Assembly (NCBI RefSeq): GCF_022227845.1
Contig: NZ_JAJNQN010000004.1
Location: 62,001 to 126,000 of the forward strand
Source: Ectothiorhodospira lacustris
GTDB lineage: Bacteria > Pseudomonadota > Gammaproteobacteria > Ectothiorhodospirales > Ectothiorhodospiraceae
DNA length: 64,000 bases
Direction: 5' to 3'
Both the position numbers and the translations under genes were made by a program. This document shows positions 43,471 through 60,044 of this stretch, piece after piece. How positions within the stretch are numbered: position 1 is the first letter of the stretch; every line of letters starts with the position of its first letter. Below the pieces are notes generated by a model. The model searched no databases. It was not told the origin of the DNA and worked only from the letters and a program-made list of their open reading frames with translations.

Positions 43471-44091
43471 ATGAAACAAAAATTTCCCCTCCTGCTGGCG
43501 GGCCTTGTACTGGTGATGGGCGTTGCCGGTTGCCAGACCGCACCGGAAAAGTCTCCGACTGCTCAGGTCACGCTGCAACAGGCTGAAATGAATGGCCCGT
43601 TTGATCGTGCCGGATTCCGGGTTGAAGAGTCGGATGGCCGTCTGTGGGTGCTCAAGCCGGGTCAGGAAAAGAGCAGCAACCATGTGGCCTTGATCGGCGC
43701 AGGTCCTCAGGGGATGACGGTGCGTGCCGTGGACCGGGACACCGCATTGGAATATTTGGCCGCCAGGCCCGGATTCAATGTGGAAGTGCAGGATGGTCGT
43801 CTGTGGGTGCTCAAGCCGGGTCAGGAGAAGAGTGGCAATCATGTGGCCTTGATCGGTGCCGGCCCTCATGGGATGACTTTGCGCGCTCTGGACCGGGACA
43901 CCGCGTTGGAATATCTGGGAACCAAGCCGGGTTTCCAGGCGAAGGCGAAGGATGGTCGTCTATGGGTGCTCAAGCCGGGTCAGGAGAAGAGTGGTAATCA
44001 TGTAGCCCGTATTGGCGTTGGTCCATTGAGCAGTACTGTCCGTGCAGTTGATGCAGAAACCATGGAAGAGTACCTGTCCGTCCAGAATTGA
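43471..44091 (+). CDS. Lipoprotein built of three 53-residue repeats
   Basis: The 206-residue protein has a signal peptide with lipobox VAGC near residue 21. Three tandem repeats follow with a period of exactly 159 bases; each contains DGRLWVLKPGQEKS, then NHVALIGAGP and a RAxDRDTALEYL-like end. The third copy is more divergent in its second half. GAGGAACG precedes the ATG. It is not recognised as a known family. A decayed copy of its 3' end lies at 45195-45327. It may be a surface or periplasmic protein connected with the neighbouring island. Confidence 0.8.
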   Translation: MKQKFPLLLAGLVLVMGVAGCQTAPEKSPTAQVTLQQAEMNGPFDRAGFRVEESDGRLWVLKPGQEKSSNHVALIGAGPQGMTVRAVDRDTALEYLAARPGFNVEVQDGRLWVLKPGQEKSGNHVALIGAGPHGMTLRALDRDTALEYLGTKPGFQAKAKDGRLWVLKPGQEKSGNHVARIGVGPLSSTVRAVDAETMEEYLSVQN

Positions 44092-44115
44092 CTCAGAAGT
44101 TCAAGCAGGTAACGA

Positions 44116-44155
44116 GAAGCACTCTGAAATGAATTTCAGAGTGCTTCTTTTTTTG
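44116..44155 (+). terminator. Strong terminator after the repeat lipoprotein
   Basis: A 15-base perfect inverted repeat (gaagcactctgaaat at 44116-44130 and its inverse at 44133-44147) with a two-base centre is followed by a T tract. Because the stem is symmetric it could also serve the converging gene at 44328-45179, although a matching T tract exists only on the plus strand. Confidence 0.88.
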
Positions 44156-44327
44156 TGCTCCATTTCAGCTTTGTCGTTTTATGTGGAAGCCGGCCTGTCT
44201 GCTGAAGAAATTGATAAGGCATGCTCTGAATGCGTCCCGTCCATTCATAGACTGGAAATTCCGGACTCCCACTTGTGTGGGCGTGACGGCAGGGGAATTT
44301 CTTGATGTTTTATGCTTAGTGATAGTT

Positions 44328-45179
44328 TTATCCATTTCCTTTGCTCTTTGGTAGGCCATCAAAAAGGGTTTTCCGGATAACAGTTCCGGGGACAGTTCGC
44401 TCCCATCTGCCGTTTGGGTGGCGTATCCAGTTGGGTTTTTTGGGTAGTTTTGTAGTATCGAGCAGCAGAGGTAATCTATCTGTGGACCCGAATTGACTGT
44501 CCCCGTCTTCGCTTCGGTTCATGAAGCGTACTATATATCTATATATAGCCTCGGCTTCAGCTGATTCATAATGATGGATGGATGGTTCTGATAGCTGTTT
44601 GAGTTTTCTTCTTCCATACGGAGATGGTATTCGCTCACTGGCAGCATCGAACGGTGGAGGCATTATGGTGATTCTTGTGTGAGAGTACTCGTGTGGTCTG
44701 TAAACATAGTTTTCGTCATATATATAAAATGATGTGTCAGCCCACTTTATTGTGTCACATTTATTTCCAAGGCCTGCTGGGATATGTGTTATTTGGTTTT
44801 TTCTGTCAAAAATAATAAATCTATTTGCGGGGATTCTCCTTGATGTGATGAACAGGGCGATTGCAAGTGGCGTTAGCAGAATCCACTCGATATCTATGTT
44901 TGAGAAGCTCGATGCGATAAATCTGGCTGTATCTGCAATTGCCAGCACAATTATTGTAAATCCTATTGCTGCTGGTATTGTTGACAAGTTGAAGTAGCCA
45001 TATATCAGCAGATCTTCAGTCTGTATTGCTGTTCCTTTCCAGTGTGTGATATGCGTGCCGCATGTGGTTTTTGTATTTCCAGTTAAGACGCTTTCATCAT
45101 GATTTCTTGATATTTTTATGTGTGATGGTGTTTTTAATTCTACCACTGGTGATTTGATAAGGGTTCTTATTACGGGCAT
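44328..45179 (-). CDS. Two-helix membrane protein, probable immunity protein (DUF6708-like), copy 1
   Basis: The 283-residue protein has two adjacent membrane helices near residues 65-115 and then a soluble domain with NRFIIFDRKNQITHIPAGLG and WADTSFYIYDENYV, a pattern like the DUF6708 proteins found beside secreted effectors. The DNA is AT-rich compared with the flanks. Its last ~40 residues, KLPKKPNWIRHPNGRWERTV to the end, are almost identical to those of the next gene (45574-46461). It lies behind the large PAAR effector on the same strand. An immunity role is inferred from context and topology. Confidence 0.65.
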   Translation of the reverse strand: MPVIRTLIKSPVVELKTPSHIKISRNHDESVLTGNTKTTCGTHITHWKGTAIQTEDLLIYGYFNLSTIPAAIGFTIIVLAIADTARFIASSFSNIDIEWILLTPLAIALFITSRRIPANRFIIFDRKNQITHIPAGLGNKCDTIKWADTSFYIYDENYVYRPHEYSHTRITIMPPPFDAASERIPSPYGRRKLKQLSEPSIHHYESAEAEAIYRYIVRFMNRSEDGDSQFGSTDRLPLLLDTTKLPKKPNWIRHPNGRWERTVPGTVIRKTLFDGLPKSKGNG

Positions 45180-45194
45180 CGGAATACTTGGGAG

Positions 45195-45327
45195 CTAAGC
45201 CTGAAACCCAGGTTTGCTGAAGTCTGGGCAGGAGAATAGTGGTAACCACGTCGCGTGGATCAGTATCGATTTATTGAGTAGCGCCGTCGGTGCAGTGGAT
45301 ATACAAATCATGGGAGGCGGAAGTTAA
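45195..45327 (+). pseudogene. Decayed copy of the 3' end of the repeat lipoprotein
   Basis: The segment containing tctgggcaggagaatagtgg and gtggatatacaaatcatggg lines up with the third repeat of the lipoprotein at 43960-44075 (ccgggtcaggagaagagtgg, gttgatgcagaaaccatgg), with frame-breaking changes. It marks the left border of the duplicated immunity-gene segment. Confidence 0.7.
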
Positions 45328-45573
45328 AGTGGCTCGATGAGAAACACTCTTAAAAGAATTTCAGAGTGTTTCTTTTTTCTCTATTTTAACGCCATAATTT
45401 TATGTGGAAGCTGGCCTGACTGCTGAAAACATTGATCAGGTTTGTTCTGGATGCATCCCGTCCGTCATTCCCGCGGAAGCGGGAATCCATTCATGGACTG
45501 GAAATTCCGGACTCCCGCTTGTGTGGGCGTGACGGCAGGAGAATTTATTGGTGTTTTATGTTTGGTGATGGCT
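45328..45573. repeat. Second copy of the lipoprotein-immunity spacer, with terminator and inverted repeat
   Basis: This stretch is a diverged duplicate of 44092-44330. It includes an imperfect copy of the terminator (actcttaaaagaatttcagagtgtttctttttt, 45345-45378), the shared 'ttttatgtggaagctggcctg', and an inverted-repeat pair (gtcattcccgcggaagcggg at 45462 and actcccgcttgtgtgggcgt at 45510). No gene is present. Confidence 0.75.
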
Positions 45574-46461
45574 TTATCCATGCCCTTTGCTCTTTCGGAA
45601 GCCATCAAGAAGGGTTTTCCGGATAACAGTTCCAGGGCCAGTCCTCTCCCATCTGCCGTCTGGGTGCCGTATCCAGTTGGGTTTTTTCGGTAGTTTTTCA
45701 GTTTTTAGTAGTGACCATTGCCAGTCTTCAGAGTCGATGTTTTTAGGTGGGTTTTTGTTTTTTGTATGTGCCTCTTCCCGGAGGGTTGGGCTTTTTTTTT
45801 CCATGAACCTTAATATGTAGCAGTAAATTTCTTCTGCGTCTTCGTCTGTGTATTTATTTTCTAGGCAGTCTGATACATTTATTAATTTGTACCTCAAGTA
45901 GGCGCTTGGTGCCCCGTTAACAATTAGGTCATCTGGCGGCCTTATGATGCTCAGATGTGTTTCTTCGTATTTTGTTGGTTTTACTGGGTTATGGTGATCG
46001 TGAATTAAGAATGATGTGTCGCCCCAATTTATAGTGTCTTGCCTTTTTGATAGTAGTTTTGGGATGTGGACGACTTGGTTTTCTTTGTCGAATATGACAA
46101 ATCTGTTATGTTTTGTTTTATCAGTTATTTTAAATAAAAGAATGCCTGTAGGTACTAGTAGGATAAGCCATATCATCCATAGATTTATATTGTAAAAAAT
46201 GGCTGATATTGGCATAACTAATCCAGCTAGTAACATCGTCGTGGCGATCGTGTCAACAGTCGGGCTCCAGTAGTTGTCTCCATATATTAATAAATTTTTA
46301 TCATGTCTTGCCGGGGCTGGGCTTTGTATTTCGTTGCTCCTTATTTTTTCGATAATTTTTTCTGAAAGTAGCGAGGTATTTTTTTCTTTTGATATCCTTA
46401 TATCCGATCTTTTGAAGGTTTCAATTAGTGGAGATTTTACGGTTGATCTTGCGACGCCCAT
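45574..46461 (-). CDS. Two-helix membrane protein, probable immunity protein (DUF6708-like), copy 2
   Basis: The 295-residue protein parallels copy 1: two membrane helices near residues 75-125, then NRFVIFDKENQVVHIPKLLS and INWGDTSFLIHD. The central and N-terminal parts differ strongly between the two copies while the last ~40 residues (KLPKKPNWIRHPDGRWERTG onward) and the DNA behind them are nearly the same. It lies 26 bases after the effector stop codon, which is the classical place for a cognate immunity gene. The DNA is AT-rich. Confidence 0.68.
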   Translation of the reverse strand: MGVARSTVKSPLIETFKRSDIRISKEKNTSLLSEKIIEKIRSNEIQSPAPARHDKNLLIYGDNYWSPTVDTIATTMLLAGLVMPISAIFYNINLWMIWLILLVPTGILLFKITDKTKHNRFVIFDKENQVVHIPKLLSKRQDTINWGDTSFLIHDHHNPVKPTKYEETHLSIIRPPDDLIVNGAPSAYLRYKLINVSDCLENKYTDEDAEEIYCYILRFMEKKSPTLREEAHTKNKNPPKNIDSEDWQWSLLKTEKLPKKPNWIRHPDGRWERTGPGTVIRKTLLDGFRKSKGHG

Positions 46462-46487
46462 GTTTTCTTTTTCCTTGCTAGTGTTGT

Positions 46488-49400
46488 TTATTTATTCGCT
46501 TCTATTTTTTCGTGATGACTTTTTATGAAAATGGTGCTGTTCGGCCATTTTTGCTCAAATTTTTTAATGATATCATCTTCTATTCCGGGTAGTTTTATCT
46601 CTATTTTTGTTCTAATCCCATGTGTTATTTCCTTTCTTTTTGCCTCTAAATAGAAGTGAGTTTTTTGGTTTTTTTCTGATTTCTTTGTCTTTGACTTGGT
46701 TTCTTCTGTAATTTTTCTATTAATTTTTTGGTGATTGAATTCTATGCTTCCATTTATGTTTTTACTTCCGATTAGGTTGGGTGGGGTGGATATTATTATT
46801 TCAATGATGACCGGATCTTCAGGTCCTAGCTCATTTATTTTTCTATGAATTTTAAGTAGGTCTTCTTGGGTTTTGTTGGCTTTTCTTTTGTAGCTTTTTA
46901 TTCGGTTTGATTTTATGTCGTGAATTATTGTTTTTAGTTCTATTTTGACTGTAGAGATTATGATCTTTTCTATTTCTTTCTTTATGTCTTTTGGGTTTTC
47001 TGTTTTTGGTGTTTTTCCAAAGTAGCTATTTATTATTTCTTTTTGTGTTTTGCTCCTTGTGTTAGCCATTGTTGCTGTCTGGCCTAATGCGCCAATGGCT
47101 AACGCTGTTAGTATTACTAGCCCTGGTCCTGCTGGGATAAGAAAAGTTATCGCTCCCGAAATGAATATTAGTGAGCCTCCAAAGACTTGACCCATGTTTT
47201 TATGTTTTATCCCATTTTTTATGGCTATTATGCCAGTGGCAGACTCTATTAGTCCGACCCCACGATTCAGTAATCTACTTGTTTTACGTAGCAGACCTTC
47301 ATAAAAGGCTCTTCTATTAGTGTTCTTTATTGCTTTTTCTATTTGCAATTCATTTATTGAGAATATTGCAAGCGCCGATAGTGCTGAGACTAGGTCTAGC
47401 TGCTCTTCGAGTGTGGCATTTTTTGGGTTTTTTGCGGCGCTGAAGATGTTTGCTGTAATTATTGGTATTTTTACGCAGTTTAAGCTTGCTCTATAGTTTG
47501 GGTTGGACGTGATTTTTTGGCTGATCTGGATGTAATGTATTGGGCTTATTATTTTTGGTAATTCAATGTGTTTTATTTTTGTATTTTCGGTATTATTTCT
47601 TGTCTTTCCGCTTATGTTTGTTCTATTTATTTCTTCTGAATATATTTTTATTCTATCCAGTTTTACTTTTGTTATCCGCTCGAGTAGTTCTGCCGTTTTT
47701 TGTATTCCTGTCTCTGGGGTTTCTAGGTTTTTACTTAGTGTTGCTTCTGTCAGTGCTTGTAATATTGCTTCAATGGCGTCCGCAGAAAATGTGATTAGCT
47801 TTAAACGGTCGCTTTCTTTGATGCTAGCTAGATTAATGTTTGTTGTTTTTAATTTCTCTACGCTCTCAAACCAGGCGAATAGTATTTTTCTTGCTTCGCT
47901 GTCCCTGCCGTTAATGACCGGGATTTTTACTATTTCTCCCAGTGCTATTTTATATAAGTAATCCAGGGATTCTTGAGATTCGTTTTCAAATATTGCATAT
48001 CCCCAATGCAGTATTCCGATGCCTCTTGTCTCTGGGTTTTCGCTACTGGTGAAGTCTTCTATTGATCTGTCGAAATCCTTTGAATTTATTATCTTTGCCA
48101 ATTTTCTTTCTGTTAAGTTTTTTATCTTATTGGATTTGAGGGTTATTTTATCCCATTTATCAAGCCTTCTTTTTATTCTTATGGTGTCTGCTACTTTAGT
48201 TAGTTCTGGGTTTTGCTCTATCATTTTCTGAATCAGTCTTCCAAGTGCTATTTCTCCTTTTGTGGCGGATTCTTCAATTTTTTCTAGTGTGGTTAGTTGC
48301 TCGTCTAGTTGATTTTTTAAATCTCTTGTCATCTGCAAGGGGTCTTGAAATATTGCTATAAGACAGCTGGAGACGTCTCGTAATGTGAGCATGTCATTTC
48401 TGTCGTCTTGCAGCTGAAAATGTTTACGTGGTTGCCCTCCATGTTCTGCGTTATATCCAAGGCGCCCCGACCTTGCGCTATCTCTGCCTAAACATAGAGG
48501 TTGAAACCTTTCTGCCACAATCGAATCATTACGGTTAGGCTTATTTGTGTTCATTGATATTGATGAGGATTGATTCCTCAAATCCCCCCACGCCATCCCC
48601 CCAAAACCCTCAATCCGCTCCCAATGCCAGGGAATCTCGCTCATGGCCAGGTGATATTCATGGAGATGTCCTGCCACGTAGTGGGGCAGGAGTAGTTTTG
48701 CGCCCAGAGGGCAATGTGCCGGGCGCTCGTCCTGGCCCTGCCATTGAGCCAGGTTGACTTCAAACCAACAGCCTTCGGGGCCGGCTTCCAGTTCGCGCCA
48801 CAGATGTCCGTCACGAAAGATGTAAACCCGGCACCCAGGGCGTATTGGGGCAGTTTCCCGCTGGTCCAGATCCAGCGCCCGGTGCAGGACGACGGCGACG
48901 AACTGATGGCGGTGGCGATGCACCCTGAGTTCCGGGTCACCTGCAAAGTTCCTTTTCTGCGGCATGACTCCACTGGCCAGCGGGACCCGATAGATACCGT
49001 AAAAGGGATCTTCCAGCCGCAATGCAAGGTCGACAGGTGCTTCTTCGAGCCCTGTGAAGATCATCCGATGGTGGCCCCGGTGACCTGGCTCCGGTTCGGG
49101 ATAGGCTTCCACGGGTTGCTGGGTAGTGCCATGAGTCGTCAGCTCGATCAGCAGTCCTTTCCCTTCGGCGCGATCCAGATCAATGTCCAGGCGCAGGGCA
49201 TAAGGAGGCTCTGCGAGAGGCGGCGCCTCCAGCATCTCGGGATCGATTTCAGGCGGAGGTGTGCAGCCTGGCTGCATCAAGGGTGCCGGTGGCGTGTTGC
49301 GACAGTTGGAAACCATCTGGTCGAATTGCCTGACCGCCGGTCGTCCCTCGAAGAAGACATTGCCGGAGGCGGTCAGAAACTCCGCATGACCCTGTCGGGT

Positions 49401-50177
49401 ACCGGAGCGAAGGCCACCGCAGTTGCCGGCTTCGTCTCCTCGACTTCTGGAGAATCGTGAATCCAGGTGACAGGCGGGGTGGCCGTTGATGCGGATGCTG
49501 TCGGCGGTGCCGACGGCATCCATGCTCTCCGCCACGTTCATGTACGGGATGGGCTTGCACTTTTTGCCGATGCGGGTACGGCAGACGTCGATGGTGGTGA
49601 GGATGCCTTCCGAGCCGGCATGGACCGCGCTGCGACCGTTGATGGCGATGTTTCGGTTGCCGGAAGTCCGGGGTGAGTTGCCTCCCACGTGACCGGACTC
49701 AGGTTCTCCCGAAGTGAGTGGGCGGGTGAGGATGGTGCCGGGAATCAGGCCGATGCGTGCCTCGATCGTGTCGGCGATCGCCCGAATGTCCCCCGGGTTG
49801 AGTCTGCCCAGCAGGACATCACCATCCAGGCCGGTCCGGGGGCAGCGGCTTATCCGTCTTCCATCCGGCGCGGATGTTTCCGGTAGCGTCCAGTCGGGAT
49901 CAATGCGGCGATAGAGACCGGCCAGCGTCTGATGCGCTGTCTCCTGACCGCCGAGCCAGGCCCTGAGTGCTCGCCGGCCCTGGTCCGGGGAAGGGAAAAC
50001 GGGCAGGCCCTGGGCAATGCCGATACTGCCATTGTCCAGGGCCGCCATGCCCAGGCCCAGGAGCCCCGGGTTCTGGGTGCGCCAGGAAAGGCTGCCACCC
50101 CGAAAGATGGTGAGAACATCCGTGTCATCAAAGTAGTGGACCTCCTGATCGGAGGCGCCGCCGGCAGCCGTGAACAT
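46488..50177 (-). CDS. PAAR-type (type VI secretion-like) effector with AT-rich C-terminal toxin
   Basis: The 1229-residue protein is chimeric. Residues ~1-150 include SWRTQNPGLLGLG and LPVFPSPDQGRRALRAWL, similar to a domain of phage and effector proteins. Residues ~175-300 form a PAAR-like DUF4150 domain (NGRSAVHAGSEGILTTIDVCR, KPIPYMNVAES, NGHPACHLDSRFSRSRGDEAGNCGG, FFEGRPAVRQFDQMVSNC), which caps the type VI spike. Residues ~320-545 are a GC-rich linker or adaptor. From about residue 545 (near 48545) the DNA turns AT-rich and the protein becomes Lys/Ile/Asn rich with a hydrophobic hairpin near residues 985-1030. No catalytic motif is seen; a membrane-damaging toxin is possible. AAGGA precedes the start. 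Confidence 0.8.
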   Translation of the reverse strand: MFTAAGGASDQEVHYFDDTDVLTIFRGGSLSWRTQNPGLLGLGMAALDNGSIGIAQGLPVFPSPDQGRRALRAWLGGQETAHQTLAGLYRRIDPDWTLPETSAPDGRRISRCPRTGLDGDVLLGRLNPGDIRAIADTIEARIGLIPGTILTRPLTSGEPESGHVGGNSPRTSGNRNIAINGRSAVHAGSEGILTTIDVCRTRIGKKCKPIPYMNVAESMDAVGTADSIRINGHPACHLDSRFSRSRGDEAGNCGGLRSGTRQGHAEFLTASGNVFFEGRPAVRQFDQMVSNCRNTPPAPLMQPGCTPPPEIDPEMLEAPPLAEPPYALRLDIDLDRAEGKGLLIELTTHGTTQQPVEAYPEPEPGHRGHHRMIFTGLEEAPVDLALRLEDPFYGIYRVPLASGVMPQKRNFAGDPELRVHRHRHQFVAVVLHRALDLDQRETAPIRPGCRVYIFRDGHLWRELEAGPEGCWFEVNLAQWQGQDERPAHCPLGAKLLLPHYVAGHLHEYHLAMSEIPWHWERIEGFGGMAWGDLRNQSSSISMNTNKPNRNDSIVAERFQPLCLGRDSARSGRLGYNAEHGGQPRKHFQLQDDRNDMLTLRDVSSCLIAIFQDPLQMTRDLKNQLDEQLTTLEKIEESATKGEIALGRLIQKMIEQNPELTKVADTIRIKRRLDKWDKITLKSNKIKNLTERKLAKIINSKDFDRSIEDFTSSENPETRGIGILHWGYAIFENESQESLDYLYKIALGEIVKIPVINGRDSEARKILFAWFESVEKLKTTNINLASIKESDRLKLITFSADAIEAILQALTEATLSKNLETPETGIQKTAELLERITKVKLDRIKIYSEEINRTNISGKTRNNTENTKIKHIELPKIISPIHYIQISQKITSNPNYRASLNCVKIPIITANIFSAAKNPKNATLEEQLDLVSALSALAIFSINELQIEKAIKNTNRRAFYEGLLRKTSRLLNRGVGLIESATGIIAIKNGIKHKNMGQVFGGSLIFISGAITFLIPAGPGLVILTALAIGALGQTATMANTRSKTQKEIINSYFGKTPKTENPKDIKKEIEKIIISTVKIELKTIIHDIKSNRIKSYKRKANKTQEDLLKIHRKINELGPEDPVIIEIIISTPPNLIGSKNINGSIEFNHQKINRKITEETKSKTKKSEKNQKTHFYLEAKRKEITHGIRTKIEIKLPGIEDDIIKKFEQKWPNSTIFIKSHHEKIEANK

Positions 50178-50316
50178 GGGGGGCGTCCTTGCCTCTGGGA
50201 TTCGCTGGAATCATTTCCCGGCGCTGTTCAAGGATCAAGTCTTTAGCCTGATTTTTTGGGGGGAGTTCTCATTTTTTCGGTTTGGTATGGAAACTTCAGG
50301 TTGTTGCAGCCGTCGG

Positions 50317-50640
50317 TCAGCCCCGGGTCACCCAGGCATTACACCATCCACCAGCCGCGACCAGCTTGCCCGGGAATACGGCGCAAGGCCCCCATTCCGC
50401 CTGGGACGGATCACTGAACATCAGACAGTTGGCGCAGTTATGGCCTGCCTGATAGGCGCTGTGGGTGGAGTCCGACGCATTTTCCACATAGCTCATGGCC
50501 CTTGCCTGGGCACTGCTCGGGTCCAGGCGTTCCGCTGCCAGGGCCGCGTGCCACGACACGGGCAGGATGGTGATCGCGGCACCGGCCGCGCCCATTTTCA
50601 GGAATCGGCGACGCTGCATGGAAGCGTTCTTGTCACTCAT
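50317..50640 (-). CDS. High-potential iron-sulfur protein (HiPIP), Tat-exported
   Basis: The 107-residue precursor has a twin-arginine signal (QRRRFLKMGAAGAA) and a mature part with the four [4Fe-4S] cysteines in CANCLMF, WGPCAVFPG and GGWCNAW. HiPIPs are soluble periplasmic one-electron carriers that feed photosynthetic reaction centres or oxidases; PioC of phototrophic iron oxidisers is a HiPIP. ATG 50640 is preceded by GAGGAGAA. It is divergent from the mtrA-like gene and has its own sigma-54 type promoter. The PAAR effector downstream is probably unrelated. Confidence 0.93.
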   Translation of the reverse strand: MSDKNASMQRRRFLKMGAAGAAITILPVSWHAALAAERLDPSSAQARAMSYVENASDSTHSAYQAGHNCANCLMFSDPSQAEWGPCAVFPGKLVAAGGWCNAWVTRG

Positions 50641-50692
50641 GGTGCTGTTCTCCTCTATCTCATTTTGTAATGTGCTGACAGCGCCGAGATCT

Positions 50693-50710
50693 TTGCAGAG
50701 AGCGTGCCAT
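50693..50710 (-). promoter_or_regulatory. Sigma-54 (-24/-12) promoter of the HiPIP gene
   Basis: Read on the minus strand, ATGGCACGCTCTCTGCAA has TGGCACG and TGCA with exactly ten bases between the GG and GC dinucleotides, very close to the TGGCACG-N4-TTGCA consensus. The predicted transcript start is near 50684, giving a leader of about 44 bases before ATG 50640. Confidence 0.78.
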
Positions 50711-51100
50711 CCTGGCCGGAGCACTGCATGGATAACGCTGCTCGAAATCCCGTTGTTGGTTTATGTGTACATAAAAGCTTGTGATCTCAATGGCTTTTAG
50801 TGATCGGACCTAGGGATTGTCGAGGTCCCAGGCGCTGATTCCCGTTGTGCAACTCCGGGCAAATACCGGGTTTGCAACCGCACCGGCGCTGTTCATTCTC
50901 TGCGCAAGATGGTCATAACCTGCTCACGCCTCATCCACGAATATCCCCGGTGATGGTTTGAGCCCGCTGGGCTTAACGGGACGGCGTGCTGGAAGATTTT
51001 TTACCAGCCCACCGCCGATCGGTCTGTTTTTAACCACCGGTCATGGTTGTTCCTGCCCCCGGGTCGACATAAGAATCAACGATTTACATATGGTTTTTTG

Positions 51101-51117
51101 TTGGCCCGCATCCTGCA
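51101..51117 (+). promoter_or_regulatory. Probable sigma-54 (-24/-12) promoter of the mtrABC-like genes
   Basis: TTGGCCCGCATCCTGCA has the GG and GC dinucleotides at the required ten-base gap and matches the consensus at most positions, with one change in the -24 block (A to C) and one in the -12 block (T to C). The predicted start is near 51128, leaving a leader of about 98 bases to ATG 51226. Confidence 0.62.
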
Positions 51118-51225
51118 TCAGCAGGCTGGCGAACCTTGCCCCACCATCCAGCGGTCGATGTTGACCACCAGGCCTGTTGCAGGGCCTGCGCAATAACAAA
51201 CAGGGGCAAACCAGAGGGGGTTGTG

Positions 51226-52104
51226 ATGAGGCATTGGTTACTCGTATTCGGCATTGCACTGGCGATGGTGCTGGTGCCCGTGGCGCCCGCCTGGGCGGTG
51301 GGCGGTGATCCGGAACGGCCCATACGTGGGGTGGACAAGGTACCCAAGCTGGAGGTGGACCGCTCCGCCCGTATCCAGGAACACGTGCAGCGCATCTTCA
51401 GGACACCCCATGCCAATTTCGCCGATGAGCGCACGCCGTTTGCCCAGGGCATGTGCAATCGCTGTCACGGACCCGGGATGGAGATCTTCTTCAACCCCGA
51501 GAAGGAATCCGCCGAGCGCATGAACCAGCCCTGTCTGAGCTGTCACGAGGAGGGCGCGCGCCGCCACTGGCATGGCAGCACCCATGAATTCTCCGGCCTG
51601 GCCTGCGTCAACTGCCATGCTATGCACAATGAGCGCCCGAGACTGCTCAAGGCCGATACCCAGTTGGAAGTGTGCGGTGCCTGCCACCTGGATCGTCGCG
51701 CCGATTTCGGCAAGCCCTCTCATCACCCGGTCCCGGAAGGCCTCATGCAGTGCACCGACTGCCATAACCCCCATGGCACCCCCGGTCCCAAGAAGCTGAT
51801 CGGTCATACGGTGAATGAGACCTGCTACAACTGCCACGCCGAAAAGCGAGGACCCTTCCTGTGGGAGCACAACCCGGCTCGCGAGGCCTGCACCACCTGT
51901 CACGATCCCCACGGTTCCATCCATCGGCCGATGCTGGTCAGCCGCCCCCCCATGCTGTGTCAGCAGTGTCACCTGGGTTCCCACTCCGACGTGCCACTCA
52001 CCGGCGCACGTATGGATTTCCGGGTGCAGGGTCGCAGCTGCCTGAACTGCCATAGCCAGGTCCACGGTTCCAACCATCCCCGTGGCTTCGTCTTCAAGGA
52101 ATGA
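51226..52104 (+). CDS. MtrA/PioA/DmsE-family periplasmic multiheme cytochrome c with nine heme motifs
   Basis: The 292-residue protein has a Sec signal peptide (cleavage near AWA-VGG). Nine CxxCH motifs are present: CNRCH, CLSCH, CVNCH, CGACH, CTDCH, CYNCH, CTTCH, CQQCH and CLNCH, starting at about residues 77, 103, 127, 150, 176, 200, 222, 245 and 272. MtrA-type proteins normally have ten; the missing one is the first, because FRTPHANFADERTPF and CHGPG match the region around the second heme. The protein would sit inside the MtrB-like barrel and carry electrons through the outer membrane. AGAGGGGG precedes the start. Confidence 0.9.
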   Translation: MRHWLLVFGIALAMVLVPVAPAWAVGGDPERPIRGVDKVPKLEVDRSARIQEHVQRIFRTPHANFADERTPFAQGMCNRCHGPGMEIFFNPEKESAERMNQPCLSCHEEGARRHWHGSTHEFSGLACVNCHAMHNERPRLLKADTQLEVCGACHLDRRADFGKPSHHPVPEGLMQCTDCHNPHGTPGPKKLIGHTVNETCYNCHAEKRGPFLWEHNPAREACTTCHDPHGSIHRPMLVSRPPMLCQQCHLGSHSDVPLTGARMDFRVQGRSCLNCHSQVHGSNHPRGFVFKE

Positions 52105-52153: not shown

Positions 52154-54187
52154 ATGAGCAGAATGTCGAAATCACTCTTGACGACCACCACGGTCTGCGC
52201 CGTGGGACTGGCCACGCCCTTGACCCTGGCCGCGCAGGAGGGATCAAGCCAGATTGTCAGAAAGGAGATCCGGGCCGGGGTCGGTTATCTGAGCGAGGAC
52301 TCCTTCCGGCTGGGACGCTTTACCGGCGTCGACCAGGCCGGGGTGTTTCTGGATCTGGGATTCCTGCTGCGCGGCCTGGATCCCCATGACGGAGATACCA
52401 CCCGCTACTGGCGACTGGAAGGCCGCAACCTCGGACTGGATTCCCGCAGCCTGAAATTGGATGCCGGTGAGCGGGGGCATTACAGCACCTTCCTGTATTA
52501 CCAGGAAATGCCCAGCTACCAGTACCGGGACGTGGGTACGCCCTACCGTGGGACCGGCTCGGGAAATCTGAGCCTGCCAGCGGCGGGCGGGGCGGCGACT
52601 GCCGATGAGTTTCTGCGCGAAGTGGATCTGGGTGTGAAGCGCGAGCGCCTGAGCGCGGGCGGGCGGGTCAACCTGGATACCCGCTGGCGGGCCAGTACGG
52701 CGGTGCATTACGACCGCAAGGATGGCCTCATGGCCCGAGGCGTGAACAACGACTACTTCTGGGCCTTGCAACGTTCCGCCGTGGTGCCGGTGCCGGTGGA
52801 TTACGAGACCACCCGTTTCGAGGCCGATGTCACCTACGACGGTGACCAGCTGCAGGGACGGCTGGGCTATCACGTGTCTGTCTTCTCCCAGCGGGATGGC
52901 CAGAGTCTGGATGTTCCCGATGCCACGGTGGCCAATTGGGACAATGCCCCGAGCCGTACGGTGGCCCTGGAGCCGGACAATCAGTTTCATCAGCTCACGG
53001 GTTCCATCGGTTACAGCTTTACCGAAAGCACCGCCCGGATAGGCGCCGATGTGGCCTTGGGCCGGATGACCCAGGATGAACGGTTCGTGGAGCAGTTCGA
53101 CGGGCTGCCTTCATCTTTGGACGGGCAGATCAACACCACGCTGGTAAATCTTCGGGCCAGCGGCCGCCCCCACGAGCGGCTGAACCTGCGTGCGGGTTAC
53201 CGCTACGACGATCGTGACAACCGCACTTCCGCCTATGACGTGGAACACAATGGACGGACATGGTCTTCACGTCCGGTCAGTTCCACCCAGAACCGCTACC
53301 ACGTGGATGCCAGCTACCGACTGCAGGATCGGACCTACCTGAATCTGGGGGTGGTCAGGGACGAGCGGGAGCGGACCTACGATGACAGGGAACGCACGGA
53401 TGAAACCGCCTACAAGGCCGGCATTCGCACCCGGGCGATTCCACGCACCACCCTCAGTGCCGAATTTCAGTATGCCGAACAGCGGGGTTCCAACTGGGAA
53501 CGGGATACCGCGCCGGAAACCCTGCGCAAGTATTACCTTGCGGACCGGGATCGCCACAGCATCACCCTGCTGGCCACCTTCCAGGCCAATGGGCGGCTGC
53601 AATTCACGCCGCGGGTGCAGTGGATCGACGATGACTATTCACGTTCCGAGTTGGGGCTGCAGTCCGCCGAGCGACAGATCTGGGCCATGGATGTCTCCTA
53701 CGTGCCCACTGATCGGCTGACCGCGTTTGCCTTCTATGCCTACGAAAACGTCAAGGCGGACCAGGACGGTTTCCGGGCACCGACCCCGACCCGTCCCGGC
53801 GGCGAGTTCTGGCGTTCGCAGCGGGATGAGGATTCCTTCACTTTGGGCGTGGGCGGTGAATACGCGGTTCGCCCGGGCAAACTGACCCTGGGGACCGAAC
53901 TGATTCATATCGAAAGCTCGGGCCGTGCCCGGGTGAGATCCGAACTTGGGAACGGCGTCTATCCCAGCCTGGAATCACGCCTGACCCAGTTCAGCCTGTA
54001 CGGCGATTACCGGCTGCGTCAGAACCTGGATTTCCGCCTGCGTTACATGGTGGAGCGTTATGAGGAAAAGGACTGGGGTCTGGATAACGTGGGGGTGACC
54101 GGTGTCGGCAACCTCATCCTGCTGGATCAGGATAGCCCCGACTACACATCACACCTGATTGCCGGCACGTTGCGCTATCGGTTCTAG
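52154..54187 (+). CDS. MtrB/PioB-family outer-membrane beta-barrel
   Basis: The 677-residue precursor has a signal peptide (ending near LTLAAQ) and then a long series of alternating amphipathic strands with a C-terminal phenylalanine (LRYRF), as in outer-membrane porins. The size and the position directly behind an MtrA-type cytochrome identify the MtrB/PioB family, which sheathes the cytochrome. No cysteine pair is seen near the mature N-terminus, unlike the CxxC of Shewanella MtrB. GAGGAG precedes ATG 52154. Confidence 0.87.
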   Translation: MSRMSKSLLTTTTVCAVGLATPLTLAAQEGSSQIVRKEIRAGVGYLSEDSFRLGRFTGVDQAGVFLDLGFLLRGLDPHDGDTTRYWRLEGRNLGLDSRSLKLDAGERGHYSTFLYYQEMPSYQYRDVGTPYRGTGSGNLSLPAAGGAATADEFLREVDLGVKRERLSAGGRVNLDTRWRASTAVHYDRKDGLMARGVNNDYFWALQRSAVVPVPVDYETTRFEADVTYDGDQLQGRLGYHVSVFSQRDGQSLDVPDATVANWDNAPSRTVALEPDNQFHQLTGSIGYSFTESTARIGADVALGRMTQDERFVEQFDGLPSSLDGQINTTLVNLRASGRPHERLNLRAGYRYDDRDNRTSAYDVEHNGRTWSSRPVSSTQNRYHVDASYRLQDRTYLNLGVVRDERERTYDDRERTDETAYKAGIRTRAIPRTTLSAEFQYAEQRGSNWERDTAPETLRKYYLADRDRHSITLLATFQANGRLQFTPRVQWIDDDYSRSELGLQSAERQIWAMDVSYVPTDRLTAFAFYAYENVKADQDGFRAPTPTRPGGEFWRSQRDEDSFTLGVGGEYAVRPGKLTLGTELIHIESSGRARVRSELGNGVYPSLESRLTQFSLYGDYRLRQNLDFRLRYMVERYEEKDWGLDNVGVTGVGNLILLDQDSPDYTSHLIAGTLRYRF

Positions 54188-54302
54188 ATACTGCTTTTAT
54201 AACAACGAGTTCAATGGGTTGGGCGATATGGATGAGCGATCTCCGGCCTGTTGCCGGAATGGCTGCGAGCGTCCACGGCGAATCAACCTGGAGGTGGGGA
54301 GC

Positions 54303-57300
54303 ATGGCACGAATCAGACGATCGAGAATGGAACAGTTCACCGGTGGGGGGGCTTCACCACCGCCCGCTATCAGTGAGGCGGGACAGACTCAGGGTCATGG
54401 CCGCATGAATGCCGTCGTGAGGAACGGCATGCATGGGGCCATGATCATCCTGCTGGCCCTGGTGCTTGCAGGCTGCCTGGCCAGTGATAGCGGATTCGAC
54501 GAGACCACCACCGGCGGCGGAGGCGGTGGCCTGCCGGCACTGCCCGATGAACCGGCGGCCGGACCGGGTCTCCAGATCACCAGTGCAGATGTCATTAATG
54601 GCCATCCAGTCGTGGAATTCACACTACTGGATGGGCGAGGTGTCCCCATCACGAACCTGTCCGCGGCCAGTTTTACCTTCGCCAAGCTGGCCCCCAGAAG
54701 CCGATATGGCCAGGGTTATGACTGGGTGAACTACATTACCCGGGAGCGTCCCGTGGCCGATTCCGGCTGGATGCCGGCCGTCTCGGAGAACAACCCCACC
54801 GGGGCGCCCATGTTCGGCAATGCCATTCAGGGGAATATCGAGAACAACGGTACCCTGGAAAACCTGGGCAACGGCGAGTATCGCTACACCTACAACCTCA
54901 ACGTAAACCAAGCCAGCCGGACCATCACCGGTGATAACGTGGGTCAGCTGTGGCGCTGTGTGGAGGATGCCTCCCATGGTAGCCATGAATTCTCCGATCG
55001 CCCTCAGGCAGAGGCTGAGTTGGGTGAGGCCGTCCGCTGCACCTGGGCGGACGGTACCACGCTGCCCCGGGGGGTTCGCATCGAGGGCAGTGGTGACACA
55101 CTGACCTACACCGTGGAATACAACGAGGACTGGACCCACCGGGTGGGCATGCAACTGGGGGGTGGCCTGGTGGCCAACGCCTGGTATGACTTCATCCCGG
55201 CCACCGGCGATCGTCCCACCCATGGGGTGGACGCCACCCGGGACATGATCTCTCTTGATAGCTGCAACACCTGCCACGACGGCACCCTGCGCAAACATGG
55301 CGGCAACCGGGTGGAGCCCCAGTACTGCGTCACCTGCCACAACCCGGGCAGCGTGGACCCGGTCAGCGGCCGCAGCATCGACTTCAAGCAGATGGTGCAT
55401 AAGATTCACCGGGGACAGTCATTGCCCAGCGTGCGCGCCGGCGTGCCCTATTTCATCCGCAACAACGACTTCAGCAAGCTGCGATTCCCGCAGGCCGTGC
55501 ATGACAACGGCAACATCGGTCATGTGGGCAACTATGCCTCCCATGGCGTCCTGCCGAACGGGGATCCGATTCCGCGCCAGGCCTCCTTCGGCGTCGACAA
55601 CTGCGTGAAGTGCCACATCGGTCAGGAGACCCGCGACGAGCTGGTGCTGATCGCCGGTAGCGAGGATGTGCTGGCCCGGCAGAAACTGGCCAGGGTGACG
55701 CCGGACGGTGATAACTGGTGGGGGCCTACCCGTACCGTCGAGGCCTGTTCCGCCTGCCACGACAACGTGTTCTGGTACAACTTCTCCGATGCCGACGTGG
55801 CTTTGCCGGGGGGCGTTCATCCGGACGAGACCCTGCCGGCCCGGCTGGCCGAGCGTTTTGGGGCCTCAACCGCCGGACCCAGGGGGGACTGGCGCAGCGG
55901 CCACCGGTTTGGTTTCAATCCGGATACTGGCTTGTGGGGTTCGGGCGACAATACTAGCGCCACCATTGCTGGCGCCATAGGGAGTAACCTGTTCGTCAGC
56001 GGCCAGGCCTGCGGCGGCTGTCATAACCAGAGTCCTGCCGGCGATGCCGCCAACATCGGGCTGCGGGGGATCGAGCAGAACGGCAACAACCGGGTTCGCG
56101 TGACCCGGGCCCACCTGAGCTTCACCCGGGCGGGCATTCGCCAGGACCAGCTCCGGATCGAACTGGAACCGGCCACCCTGGATCCGGCCGCCGAATCCGT
56201 GACCTTCCGCCTGCGGGTGCGGGATGACGCCAAGAGCGTGTACCTGCGACACGACGTCGATGCCACCTTCTCCCTCGGCTTCGTCATGGGCTGGCGCGAG
56301 GAGGGCTTTGCCGACTTCACCCATTCCAGCGACATCAACAATAACTGGCCGGGCCGTACCACGGACTTTGGATGTAATGCCGATTGCTGGACCAGCGGCG
56401 CAGGCAACAATATTGCCATTAGCGGTCCTTCCGGCAGCGGCTACTACACGGTGACCCTGGACGTATCCTCCATCATCGACACCATGCCCGAAAACGGTAC
56501 CGGCTCTATTGCGGTGCAGCATCAGGTGGTGCCCAAGGATGCCCTGGGTACGGTGGAGAGCGTCTGGGATGACAGCCGTACGCCCGTCGTCAACGCCCTG
56601 CATCGGGTGACCACCTTTGGCATCGGCAATACCGTCCCGACGCCTCGGCGCCAAGTGGTGGACGTGGAAGAGACCTGCCGGTCCTGCCATATCCGCTTTG
56701 CCAAGCATGGCGGCAACCGCCGCAACAACCCGGAGCTGTGCGTCCATTGTCACAACCCCAACAATACGGATATTTCCAATCAATTCGGGATGCCACGTCG
56801 CGGCCTGGAAGGGCAGTTCGATGGCAAGTTTGAAGAGTCCAAGGACTTCAAGCGCATGATCCATCACATCCACCGGGCCAAGATGGGGGCGGATGGCATC
56901 CAGCTGCGTGCCCTGGTGTTCGGCGGTCCGGCGCCTCAGGGAGATGAGGATGGACAGTGGGACAACGCCCATCACTTCCCGGGCAGTATTGCCAACTGCA
57001 ATACCTGCCACGTCAACGACAGCTACAAATTGCCGCTGGCACCAGGCGTGATCGGTTCCACCCACCGCAGCTTTGACTGGGAGACCGGCAACTTCACCAA
57101 TGCCGGCACGGTGGCCTTCGGTGCCGACAACGGGCTGGACAACCTGGAGCAGCATCAGAAGTTCAGCCCGATCGCCTCGGTCTGCACCTCCTGCCACACC
57201 AATCCGGACTGGTTCGAGAACCATATCCGGCCCAGAGGCGGTTCCATGTCCGCCGGCATCGACAACCTGGATCCGGGTGGTGAAAACTGCCTGACCTGCC

Positions 57301-57356
57301 ACGGTCCGGGCGGTGATGCGGACATCAGCCAGGTCCACGACATCCGGCCCCGGTGA
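54303..57356 (+). CDS. OmcA/MtrC-family decaheme outer-membrane lipoprotein cytochrome
   Basis: This ~1017-residue protein has ten CxxCH motifs in two groups of five: CNTCH, CVTCH, CVKCH, CSACH and CGGCH, then CRSCH, CVHCH, CNTCH, CTSCH and CLTCH. Beta-rich domains precede each group, the OmcA/MtrC layout. A lipobox LAGC follows a hydrophobic segment, so it is probably anchored in the outer membrane facing outward. ATG 54303 has GGAGGTGGGG in front but gives an unusually long n-region; ATG 54405 fits the signal peptide better. It is larger than Shewanella MtrC, and no CxxxC-type regulatory motif was noted. Confidence 0.9.
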   Translation: MARIRRSRMEQFTGGGASPPPAISEAGQTQGHGRMNAVVRNGMHGAMIILLALVLAGCLASDSGFDETTTGGGGGGLPALPDEPAAGPGLQITSADVINGHPVVEFTLLDGRGVPITNLSAASFTFAKLAPRSRYGQGYDWVNYITRERPVADSGWMPAVSENNPTGAPMFGNAIQGNIENNGTLENLGNGEYRYTYNLNVNQASRTITGDNVGQLWRCVEDASHGSHEFSDRPQAEAELGEAVRCTWADGTTLPRGVRIEGSGDTLTYTVEYNEDWTHRVGMQLGGGLVANAWYDFIPATGDRPTHGVDATRDMISLDSCNTCHDGTLRKHGGNRVEPQYCVTCHNPGSVDPVSGRSIDFKQMVHKIHRGQSLPSVRAGVPYFIRNNDFSKLRFPQAVHDNGNIGHVGNYASHGVLPNGDPIPRQASFGVDNCVKCHIGQETRDELVLIAGSEDVLARQKLARVTPDGDNWWGPTRTVEACSACHDNVFWYNFSDADVALPGGVHPDETLPARLAERFGASTAGPRGDWRSGHRFGFNPDTGLWGSGDNTSATIAGAIGSNLFVSGQACGGCHNQSPAGDAANIGLRGIEQNGNNRVRVTRAHLSFTRAGIRQDQLRIELEPATLDPAAESVTFRLRVRDDAKSVYLRHDVDATFSLGFVMGWREEGFADFTHSSDINNNWPGRTTDFGCNADCWTSGAGNNIAISGPSGSGYYTVTLDVSSIIDTMPENGTGSIAVQHQVVPKDALGTVESVWDDSRTPVVNALHRVTTFGIGNTVPTPRRQVVDVEETCRSCHIRFAKHGGNRRNNPELCVHCHNPNNTDISNQFGMPRRGLEGQFDGKFEESKDFKRMIHHIHRAKMGADGIQLRALVFGGPAPQGDEDGQWDNAHHFPGSIANCNTCHVNDSYKLPLAPGVIGSTHRSFDWETGNFTNAGTVAFGADNGLDNLEQHQKFSPIASVCTSCHTNPDWFENHIRPRGGSMSAGIDNLDPGGENCLTCHGPGGDADISQVHDIRPR

Positions 57357-57482: not shown

Positions 57483-57511
57483 TTGACAGTCATTTTATTT
57501 GTGGTTATATG
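57483..57511 (+). promoter_or_regulatory. Sigma-70 promoter of the enhancer-binding protein gene
   Basis: TTGACA at 57483-57488 and TATATG at 57506-57511 are separated by exactly 17 bases. The predicted start is near 57518, about 95 bases before the GTG start codon at 57613. Confidence 0.7.
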
Positions 57512-57521: not shown

Positions 57522-57535
57522 TTGACAATAATCAA
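57522..57535. promoter_or_regulatory. FNR/ANR-like site overlapping the regulator promoter
   Basis: TTGACAATAATCAA matches TTGAT-N4-ATCAA at nine of ten fixed bases. It begins four bases after the predicted transcript start, where a bound protein would block transcription. Confidence 0.45.
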
Positions 57536-57612: not shown

Positions 57613-58992
57613 GTGGATACCATGAGTGGCAATGTCATTCTGATCGGCTGGGACTGTAGTTCTCAAGGCAAGGCAGTGGAACGGCTTCTCAAGACCCAGG
57701 GGCTGGCTTGTGAGCATCGATCGACTCAGGAGGTGGTCAGTCCCATGAGCGAGCCGGCGGCGGTTTTGCTGGTGCGGGAAAGCGGTACCCAAGCCCCGCG
57801 GCTGCCGGTGTTGCAGGCCCTGCATGACAGCGGCAATACCCGGTCGGTGATCCTGGTGGGGGACCGTCTGTTACCGGAGCAGGTGGTGCAGGCCACCCGG
57901 ATGGGGGCGCTGGATGTGTTGCCCGAGCCCCTGGATACCGATCGGCTGCTGTCCGCCCTGCAGCAGGCCCGCCTCAGCAGCCTGAGCACCCATGTGGACG
58001 AAGTCATCCGGGAAGACTGCCCCTCCATTCTTGGTTCCTCCCCCAAGATGGTCGAGGTCTTCAAGCAGCTGGGGGTGGCGGCCTCCAATGATCTCAATGT
58101 CCTGCTCACCGGCGAGACCGGGGTGGGGAAGGAGGTCTCCGCCTACTGCATTCATCGCCATTCCTCCCGGGCCGGCGGCCCTTATATGGCCATCAACTGC
58201 ACCGCCATTCCCGAGGGGTTGCTGGAGGCGGAACTGTTCGGCCATGCTCGGGGGGCGTACACCAATGCGGTCAATGAAGGCGTCGGCAAGATCGAGGCGG
58301 CGGAAGGCGGCACCTTGCTGCTGGACGAGATCGGCGACATGTCGCCCACCTTCCAGGCCAAGCTGCTGCGCTTTCTGGAAGACAAGCATTTTCATCGGCT
58401 GGGGGATGCGTCCGCCCGTTCCGCGGACGTGCGCATCATCGCCGCCACCAACCGGGATCTGTCGGCCGAGGTGGAGTCGGGACGGTTCCGGCGGGATCTG
58501 TATTACCGCCTGGCCCAGTTCCCCATCAGCATCCCTCCGCTGCGCGAGCGGCCGGATGACGTCCGTTCCCTGGTGCGTGCCTTCGTGGCGGAGGCCAATC
58601 TGCGCCTGGGCCTCAAGATCACCGAGGTCTCGGAAGAGGCGGAGGCGGCCGCTCTGGATTATCACTGGCCCGGGAATGTGCGGGAACTGAAGAATCTGGT
58701 CTATCAGGCCGCGGTACGTGCCCGCGTCGGGAGCATCACCGGGTTTCCCTTTGCCGTCGAGACTGAGACCGAATGCCCTGCCGGTCGCGAGTGCAGATCG
58801 GGCGGTGGGCTGGAGTCACTGGTGCAGCGGGCGGTGGCCGGGGGGCGGGTGCGGCACCTGCTGGAGGAGTTCGAGGCCCTGACCCTGCGCAGTCTGTTGG
58901 AGGCCTTCGGGGGCAACCGCAGCCGGATCTCGGAGGAACTGGGGATCTCCCGCAATACCCTCAGGGCGAAACTCAAGGTCCACGGGCTTTAA
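57613..58992 (+). CDS. Sigma-54 enhancer-binding transcriptional activator
   Basis: The 459-residue protein has a receiver-like N-terminus (VILIGWD, PAAVLLVRESG, GALDVLPEPLDTDRLL) in which the phosphorylated aspartate is not evident. The AAA+ domain follows with Walker A GETGVGKE (near residue 167), GAYTNA in place of the sigma-54-contacting GAFTGA loop (near 214), Walker B GGTLLLDEIGDM and the arginine-finger region RRDLYYRL. A Fis-type helix-turn-helix closes it (NRSRISEELGISRNTLRAKL). GTG 57613 has AGGAG six bases in front. Its place after the cytochrome operon, which has sigma-54 promoters, suggests it controls that operon. Confidence 0.9.
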   Translation: MDTMSGNVILIGWDCSSQGKAVERLLKTQGLACEHRSTQEVVSPMSEPAAVLLVRESGTQAPRLPVLQALHDSGNTRSVILVGDRLLPEQVVQATRMGALDVLPEPLDTDRLLSALQQARLSSLSTHVDEVIREDCPSILGSSPKMVEVFKQLGVAASNDLNVLLTGETGVGKEVSAYCIHRHSSRAGGPYMAINCTAIPEGLLEAELFGHARGAYTNAVNEGVGKIEAAEGGTLLLDEIGDMSPTFQAKLLRFLEDKHFHRLGDASARSADVRIIAATNRDLSAEVESGRFRRDLYYRLAQFPISIPPLRERPDDVRSLVRAFVAEANLRLGLKITEVSEEAEAAALDYHWPGNVRELKNLVYQAAVRARVGSITGFPFAVETETECPAGRECRSGGGLESLVQRAVAGGRVRHLLEEFEALTLRSLLEAFGGNRSRISEELGISRNTLRAKLKVHGL

Positions 58993-60044
58993 TCCAGCAG
59001 TTCCAGACCTCGTGTCCGCCAGTTCACCACCGCTGTGTGGGGCACCATGCGGCGGGCCAGGTCCGGGAAATCCTTGCGAATCACCTCCCGGGCAAAATCC
59101 GTCAGAAAACGGGATTCCAGCATGGCCCGCGCCCGGTCCGGACCGATGTCCTCATAGGGGGCCGAGGTCAGCAGCATGAAGCCGTCATCGGGTATCCGGC
59201 CCGCAGCCATGTTGTCCTCAATGATCCCTGCGGCCTTGTGGACGGGGGTGGACAGGTCCGGGCTGTAGGGACCGATGATCAGGGCCGTATTGGGCACATG
59301 GAGGAAGTCAAAGCCCCGGCCGACGCAGATGGCCCATTCCCGATGCTGGATGTCCAACTCCCGGGCCACGCCCCGCAAGGACTGCACGTGGGCCAGGTTG
59401 CCCTCCAGCAGCGGCAGCAGATCCCGCCGCACTTCCGCCGGCATGTCAGGACAGACAGGCATCAGAAGACCTTCCAGATCCGCGGCATTTCCCGTTTCCA
59501 GTTGGCTGATATCCAGCACCTCGTCCCGGTCCCCATGGATGATCAGGGCATCGGTGTCGGTCTCGAAGCCGCAGACCAGTGGGTACACCTGCTGCCGGTC
59601 ACGGCCGAACAGGGCCTCTGCCTGCGCACGGATCTGGCGGGTATGGGCGATGGCTGCCCCGGTGTCGTAGTCGAACCCGGCGCAGCCGCGGGAACAGGCG
59701 CCCTTGGACAGGTGATAGGTGATCATCAGCAGCACTCGATGCCCGGCGGAGGCGGCATCCTGCGCCATCTCGGCGATCAGCTTGCCCAGAAAGGGCCAGC
59801 CCAGATCAAAGCGTCCGCCCAGGTTGCGGAAAGGGCGGATGATTCCCAGCGGGGTGCAGGTGGCATGGGGGATATGGATACGCCCGTCCATGCACTTGAG
59901 CACGGCGATGCGGGTGGAATGCCGGGCCAGATAGCGATCCCGGGCCAGGCTGGCGGCCGGGCTACAGAACAGCTCCGAATGTTTGCGGGACAGGTTGATC
60001 AGCCACTGGATGCGTGCCTCGATGGGGTAGGTGTGCACCTGCAT
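58989..60044 (-). CDS. CsoSCA-like (beta-type) carbonic anhydrase outside the shell operon core
   Basis: The 351-residue protein aligns with the carboxysomal carbonic anhydrase encoded at 63133-64000: ITYHLSKGACSRGC and CGFETDTDALIIHG match IYHFSSRHPSHEGC and MGLDTDTDALRIHV there. The zinc/catalytic set of beta enzymes is present: CMDGR gives Cys, Asp and Arg, and the later His and Cys are the other two zinc ligands. The Rubisco-binding N-terminal region of CsoSCA is absent. The start at MQVHTYPIEARI is chosen from the similarity. It is the last gene of the minus-strand carboxysome series and overlaps the activator gene tail to tail by four bases. Confidence 0.82.
   Translation of the reverse strand: MQVHTYPIEARIQWLINLSRKHSELFCSPAASLARDRYLARHSTRIAVLKCMDGRIHIPHATCTPLGIIRPFRNLGGRFDLGWPFLGKLIAEMAQDAASAGHRVLLMITYHLSKGACSRGCAGFDYDTGAAIAHTRQIRAQAEALFGRDRQQVYPLVCGFETDTDALIIHGDRDEVLDISQLETGNAADLEGLLMPVCPDMPAEVRRDLLPLLEGNLAHVQSLRGVARELDIQHREWAICVGRGFDFLHVPNTALIIGPYSPDLSTPVHKAAGIIEDNMAAGRIPDDGFMLLTSAPYEDIGPDRARAMLESRFLTDFAREVIRKDFPDLARRMVPHTAVVNWRTRGLELLD

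Follow-up and report, generated by a model that had tools for sequence, protein, structure and literature searches.

Predicted sigma-54 and IHF control of an mtrABC electron conduit in Ectothiorhodospira, with a dedicated activator and a probable extension to HiPIP in one clade

Gene content of the mtr locus

The window, by which we mean the whole 64-kb stretch of DNA analysed herein, derives from a 3.28-Mb genome assembled in 49 contigs, and contains a HiPIP gene on the minus strand followed by mtrA, mtrB, a cytochrome gene of the OmcA/MtrC family and a sigma-54 activator gene, all on the plus strand. Gene identities are taken from Pfam or NCBIfam matches above curated cut-offs, other than for the activator, which is assigned by its Pfam domains only, with no NCBIfam equivalog reaching cut-off among the matches listed. 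The HiPIP gene (50317-50640, minus strand) encodes a protein of 107 aa (PF01355, E=5.4e-23) with a Tat signal, the TAT_signal match itself being slightly under cut-off (E=2.7e-4). Next to it, mtrA (51226-52104, plus strand) specifies a DmsE family protein with nine CXXCH motifs (TIGR03508, E=5.8e-76), and is followed on the same strand by the mtrB/pioB porin gene (PF11854, E=2.6e-132) and the mtrC/omcA family cytochrome gene, which has ten CXXCH motifs (TIGR03507, E=2.2e-105); coordinates for the latter two, 52157-54187 and 54231-57356, respectively, are those of the stretches searched, and their starts are thus approximate. TIGR03508, TIGR03509 and TIGR03507 are all found above cut-off in this one cluster, which identifies it as an MtrCAB conduit. 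MtrA harbours nine rather than ten CXXCH motifs in all five orthologs examined, and the missing heme, judged by position against the DmsE/MtrA pattern, would seem to be the first. Downstream of the operon, as had been described before, lies the activator gene (57613-58992, plus strand), which begins with a GTG codon at 57613.

Several features flank this cluster. Past the activator gene is a gene of the LysR type similar to CbbR. A minus-strand frame at 58989-60239, which converges on the activator gene and touches it, encodes a CMDGR stretch and matches carboxysome shell carbonic anhydrase only weakly (25 bits). On the other side, the HiPIP gene is adjoined by a frame for a 1229-aa protein with a Tox-PAAR-like domain (46488-50177, minus strand; PF13665), beyond which are proteins of 283 and 295 aa that appear alike by eye. 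Further out, at 43471-44091 on the plus strand, inspection by eye reveals a lipoprotein-like protein with three near-identical repeats (RLWVLKPGQEKSGNHVALIG).

Distribution within the genus

Comparisons were made across 10 Ectothiorhodospira genomes, six of which contain mtrB. Named relatives recovered by the MtrB search are E. shaposhnikovii DSM 243, strain beta1, E. marina DSM 241 and E. haloalkaliphila ATCC 51935; the name Ect. vacuolata now resolves to E. shaposhnikovii in the NCBI taxonomy. The HiPIP gene adjoins mtr in two of the six mtr genomes, namely that of the window and one other (G003), whilst three genomes have no HiPIP gene near mtr within the 16.5 kb examined. The sixth, that of E. 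shaposhnikovii DSM 243 (G002), is without the region altogether: at approximately 11266-11420 of its locus (L028) there is a deletion relative to about 43865-51688 of the window, which takes out HiPIP, both of the promoters discussed below and the first half of mtrA, and fuses a lipoprotein-like gene to the remainder. In this type strain mtrABC may be dead, or the assembly may be wrong.

MtrAB has been reported to occur together with OmcA in five strains of Ectothiorhodospira, and a HiPIP gene to lie beside them in Ect. vacuolata DSM 2111, in a paper that proposes Fe(II) oxidation (PMC8877833). The gene content of the cluster is therefore already published, and it is the control of these genes that is new here.

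Two -24/-12 elements between HiPIP and mtrA

A preliminary description of this DNA had proposed divergent sigma-54 promoters that join HiPIP and the cytochrome operon into one regulon. Both of the strings on which it relied are present, TTGCAGAGAGCGTGCCAT at 50693-50710 (minus strand ATGGCACGCTCTCTGCAA) and TTGGCCCGCATCCTGCA at 51101-51117 on the plus strand, and each has the ten-base spacing from GG to GC. Assuming that transcription starts 12 bases past the GC, the leaders amount to about 43 bases before the HiPIP ATG (50640) and 98 before that of mtrA (51226), much as had been suggested. The preliminary description did not include an IHF site, a candidate enhancer, the GAFTGA change and loss of receiver residues in the activator, or an FNR-type box, and it is these features that, taken together, change the likely mechanism.

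With regard to chance, the relaxed pattern TGGC-N8-TGCW is found 20 times in the window versus 8.3 expected, with 17 of these matches outside the HiPIP-mtrA gap, so that a match alone is weak evidence. The sigma-54 consensus TGGCAC-N5-TTGCW is not enriched in the window when up to two mismatches are allowed (35 versus 39), and pattern counts alone neither support nor refute the sites. Within the 585-bp gap there are three matches to the relaxed pattern versus a mean of 0.10 in 2000 shuffles, three or more being reached in 0.1 % of these. The third, at 50713-50728 on the plus strand, is not conserved in G003 and was taken as chance. A strict scan of the gap returned no sigma-70-type site.

The probable mtrA promoter and its IHF consensus site

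The mtrA element (TGGCCCGCATCCTGCA, 51102-51117, plus strand) has two mismatches to the consensus in the window, and is conserved in each of the five genomes with an intact mtrA 5' end, where TGGC-N8-TGCW stands between -118 and -124 from the ATG. G002, which lacks the gap and the start of mtrA altogether, did not enter the promoter counts, and was included in the activator and FNR-box tallies. Around the conserved element the mtrA leaders have diverged, and MtrB identity across the two clades is as low as about 66-70 %. The elements of the relatives read TGGCACGACTCCTGCT, TGGCACGAGTTCTGCT and TGGCATAAGTCCTGCA, with those of G006 and G007 (TGGCACG...CTGCT) being closer to the consensus than that of the window.

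Upstream of this element, at 51074-51086 on the plus strand, is an IHF consensus site (AATCAACGATTTA), the only occurrence of WATCAANNNNTTR on either strand of the window; the same consensus lies 28-29 bp upstream of the mtrA TGGC in 5/5 genomes. An IHF site between enhancer and sigma-54 promoter is a common, though not obligatory, arrangement. A search for the IHF site minus its first base, with a -24/-12 match 8-30 bases downstream of it, returned a single match in the 3.28 Mb of the source genome, at mtrA. Across the 10 genomes there were 10 matches, five of them at mtrA, and a reversed-pattern control returned none. The remaining five comprise pairs before a secreted-protein gene (G003; G004) and, twice, a modA-like gene (G004), the gene names being a reading of the sequence, and one with no gene within 400 bases. 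Shuffles of the gap that preserve dinucleotides contained the pair once in 5000. Seven distant mtrA loci (eight, minus L013, which is cut by a contig end) were scanned over 400 bases upstream of extrapolated starts, on the coding strand only; one has a -24/-12 match, without IHF, and none has an IHF match.

The conservation, the IHF site and the genome-wide pair count place the mtrA site well above chance. Were the sites chance matches, with mtrABC transcribed from an ordinary promoter, the abundance of the relaxed pattern (20 matches) would be accounted for, but not the conservation together with IHF in all five genomes, nor the uniqueness of the pair in the source genome; the lack of a sigma-70-type site in the gap also speaks against this explanation, which we consider very improbable. 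The conserved element, the IHF site, the linked activator gene and the presence of both rpoN and ihfA in the source genome thus give strong support to the proposal that sigma-54 controls mtrABC, which, as predicted from sequence, is very likely.

The probable HiPIP promoter

The HiPIP element (TGGCACGCTCTCTGCA, 50694-50709, minus strand) has one mismatch to the consensus and is conserved in G003, the one other genome with this HiPIP gene beside mtr. Overall identity of the gap between these two genomes is 78 %, and islands with at least 24 of 25 positions identical include 50691-50714, which contains the HiPIP element, as well as 50769-50800, 50883-50928, 50983-51011 and 51061-51160. Beside the second of these is an inverted repeat, TTTATG-N4-CATAAA (50760-50775). 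No IHF site was found on the HiPIP side with a relaxed pattern (50500-51000, either strand).

Other HiPIP genes of the genus served as a control: there are 33 matches, of which 30 were used besides the two mtr-adjacent ones, one being left out. None of the 30 has a -24/-12 match in the 400 bases before its longest frame, a count that skips bases near some true starts. Measured instead from the twin arginine, which could be located in all but four of the 30, there is no match within 500 bases in any of the 26 (one occurs at -505); both mtr-adjacent genes have theirs at -96 and -98.

Sigma-54 control of HiPIP is accordingly predicted as likely, albeit with less certainty than for mtrA, as it is drawn from two related genomes. 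It is conceivable that only mtrABC is driven by sigma-54, with the HiPIP element a chance match or a relic and HiPIP expressed by other means, as might be suspected from the adjacency in only 2/6 genomes, from the missing IHF site and from the other, evidently chance, match at 50713 in the same gap. Nevertheless, the HiPIP site departs from the consensus at one position and the window's mtrA site at two, it forms a conserved island amid diverged neighbours, and the other HiPIP genes of the genus have no such site nearby, all of which render that explanation unlikely. A single regulon of HiPIP and cytochrome operon, as originally put forward, is consequently supported in two close relatives only: with HiPIP beside mtr in just two of six genomes it is best described as a clade-specific extension, and, given the three genomes in which HiPIP is absent from the 16.5 kb examined, HiPIP does not belong to the core of the system.

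A candidate enhancer between the promoters

The conserved island 50883-50928 contains a dyad, TGTTC-N16-GGTCA-N5-TGCTC (50890-50926), that is a candidate enhancer (UAS) for the activator. It lies near the centre of the stretch that separates the promoters, with the -24 of HiPIP about 180 bp away and that of mtrA about 175 bp away. The best dyad common to the five upstream regions is TGATC-N16-GATCA, with four mismatches in 50 positions. Shuffled alignment columns gave a mean of 10.0 and a minimum of 6, with 0/400 as good, for a dyad that had been spotted earlier in the same data; the shuffles repeat the search over word and spacer, and keep single-base composition only. With three other limits for the regions, 0/150 shuffles were as good in each case, including a 300-base limit that excludes the window's own site and scores 6 instead of 4.

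One of the four mismatches comes from the three distant genomes and three come from the window and G003, so that the dyad is better supported in the relatives than at 50890-50926 itself. A 38-base profile test was not significant (132/200 shuffles as good). An extended pattern, derived from these very sites, occurs without mismatch three times in the ten genomes, always at mtr, and G006 has at least two mismatches to it. The distance from enhancer to -24 differs between the clades.

The linked activator

The product of 57613-58992 has the domains of an enhancer-binding protein, namely an AAA+ sigma-54 interaction domain (PF00158, E=6.7e-65) and a Fis-type helix-turn-helix (HTH_8, PF02954). The AAA+ domain, Walker motifs included, appears intact except for the loop described below. 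Of the ten genomes, each of the six that contain mtrB has an ortholog, always on one stretch with it, and the other four have none; these gave no MtrB match, and the closest activators in them reach only 39-44 % identity. The source genome contains 15 further stretches resembling the activator, one of which is merely a DNA-binding helix.

The sigma-54 contact loop does not read GAFTGA. Amongst the 27 distinct activators caught by a motif script in the DNA examined, GAYTNA is found in all six orthologs and in none of the other 21, which read GAFTGA (17) or GAFSGA (4). According to PMC2941729, NorR G266N is fully constitutive and competent for open complexes with sigma-54, F264Y allows partial escape, and in most activators GAFTGA changes harm activation. 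By the last of these, GAYTNA could denote a weak or non-sigma-54 regulator. The neighbouring protein might then be a repressor or a sigma-70 regulator, with another activator, for which the 15 further stretches offer candidates, serving mtrA. What weighs against such an arrangement is the exact co-occurrence and linkage with mtr in 6/10 genomes, the apparent integrity of the Walker motifs and remaining AAA+ domain, and the fact that the asparagine change works in NorR; we regard it as unlikely. Since each change is functional alone in NorR and the other domains are present, the protein is predicted to work like an enhancer-binding protein, and it is with good probability that the neighbouring activator drives these promoters.

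Residues 1-125 display a weak likeness to NtrC receivers (NtrC1, E=0.0015); four TALE-repeat proteins that outscore NtrC1 over short stretches were taken as chance. A phosphorylatable receiver has an acceptor Asp, an acidic pair and a Lys. In alignment to NtrC1, the acceptor Asp is replaced by Arg, invariant in 6/6 orthologs, and the Lys by Glu or Asp. A structure model of the N-terminal part is poor (pLDDT 52). This domain is nonetheless kept in all six orthologs, with invariant stretches such as LVRESG, and this conservation indicates that it still does something. A class-wide search with the N-terminal alignment found it in one of 369 evenly drawn genomes, that being the source genome.

With the acceptor Asp lost, phosphorylation of the activator is unlikely, and as the asparagine variant of NorR is constitutive (PMC2941729), constitutive activity is plausible, although we put it forward tentatively, at somewhat short of even odds. 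Alternatively, GAYTNA may be neutral and the N-terminal domain may sense redox state, a metal or a partner protein instead of being phosphorylated. The conservation of that domain in 6/6, which would be odd were it functionless, fits such a regulated protein, yet asparagine at this position makes NorR unresponsive to its own regulatory domain (PMC2941729); this, too, is a possibility that we hold only tentatively. Our best reading is of a dedicated, possibly signal-independent activator, which would be controlled via its own synthesis.

Possible control of the activator gene

Before the activator gene, an FNR-type box (TTGACAATAATCAA, 57522-57535) is present in 6/6 genomes, reading TTGACAATAATCAA in the window, G002 and G003, and TTGATAATAATCAA in G006, G007 and G009. 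Relative to the FNR consensus TTGAT-N4-ATCAA, it is exact in three and has one change in three. A single box of this type is not rare, as the window holds two more, at 10693-10706 and 37083-37096 (TTGATTTCAATCAA, TTGATTGTTATCAA). Two FNR-like proteins with an N-terminal Cys cluster, read by eye, are encoded in the source genome.

A possible sigma-70 promoter, TTGACA-N17-TATATG (57483-57511, plus strand), precedes the box. It is our own reading of the sequence, and no terminator is claimed, since a scan before the activator gene, under a rule that demanded T at the last -10 position, returned neither a sigma-70-type promoter nor a terminator. Placed at about +10 of this putative promoter, the FNR-type box could mediate repression, or it could serve activation of a downstream start.

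Proposed mechanism

Taken together, these features suggest that sigma-54 RNA polymerase would transcribe mtrABC, an outer-membrane electron conduit, from the -24/-12 element at 51102-51117, with IHF bending the DNA at 51074-51086 and the activator binding upstream, probably at the dyad 50890-50926, to open the promoter complex. The divergent sigma-54 promoter of HiPIP, the likely periplasmic partner of the conduit, may be served by this enhancer as well in the vacuolata/shaposhnikovii clade. What the sequences show are the sites and their conservation, the co-occurrence of activator and mtrB, and the motif changes; binding by sigma-54 and by IHF, the identity of the enhancer, constitutive activity, any role of FNR with its sign, and the direction of electron flow are inferred. 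The GAYTNA loop and a receiver-like domain lacking its phosphorylation residues imply that no phosphorylation, and perhaps no signal, would be required, and control would then be exerted through synthesis of the activator, from a promoter with an FNR-type box. We assign this explanation as a whole, i.e. sigma-54, IHF and a dedicated activator controlling mtrABC, with HiPIP added in one clade, a probability of roughly 0.82.

A more specific form of it is less likely than not: that the activator is naturally locked on, with both of the changes that free NorR fixed together and the phosphorylation residues of the receiver lost, leaving conduit and HiPIP gated only by an FNR-type oxygen switch that sets the amount of activator.

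Comparison with known systems

The published control of Mtr/Pio-type conduits in phototrophs that we found is that of pioABC and FixK. A switch of sigma-54 and IHF with a dedicated activator would provide a tight, low-leak control point, would name HiPIP as the likely conduit partner in two genomes, and would help to establish when these purple sulfur bacteria make use of extracellular electrons. The GAYTNA activator would, in turn, allow the coupling of sigma-54 contact loop and sensor domain to be examined in a natural variant. A search of open-licence literature by title and start of abstract gave no account of an Mtr or Pio conduit under sigma-54 among the matches listed. Clusters of the same kind in the genus or family are described as MtrAB-OmcA (PMC8877833; PMC8805035, group 7), in accounts whose available parts do not mention promoters or an activator.

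HiPIP is also a component of the pio system of Rhodopseudomonas palustris TIE-1. In that strain pioABC is a direct target of FixK, at a promoter whose -35/-10 boxes resemble class II, and RpoN goes unmentioned in the available part of the text (PMC3050613). Both systems concern a phototroph with a decaheme cytochrome, a porin and a CRP/FNR-type site in the circuit, whereas the Ectothiorhodospira conduit has predicted sigma-54 promoters and its FNR-type box precedes the activator gene. For Geobacter sulfurreducens, omcB is reported to be raised in a strain carrying additional RpoN, and no RpoN element was found for a group of genes of such electron transfer (PMC2725144). A link of sigma-54 to extracellular electron transfer cytochromes is, by this precedent, not new as such, although there it involves another kind of bacterium, other conduits and Fe(III) reduction. 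Lastly, the activator shares with the NorR variants G266N and F264Y an asparagine at the fifth and a tyrosine at the third position of GAFTGA (PMC2941729); whilst those changes were laboratory-made, in a protein with a GAF NO sensor, the Ectothiorhodospira changes are natural, occur together and are fixed, in a protein with a receiver-like domain.
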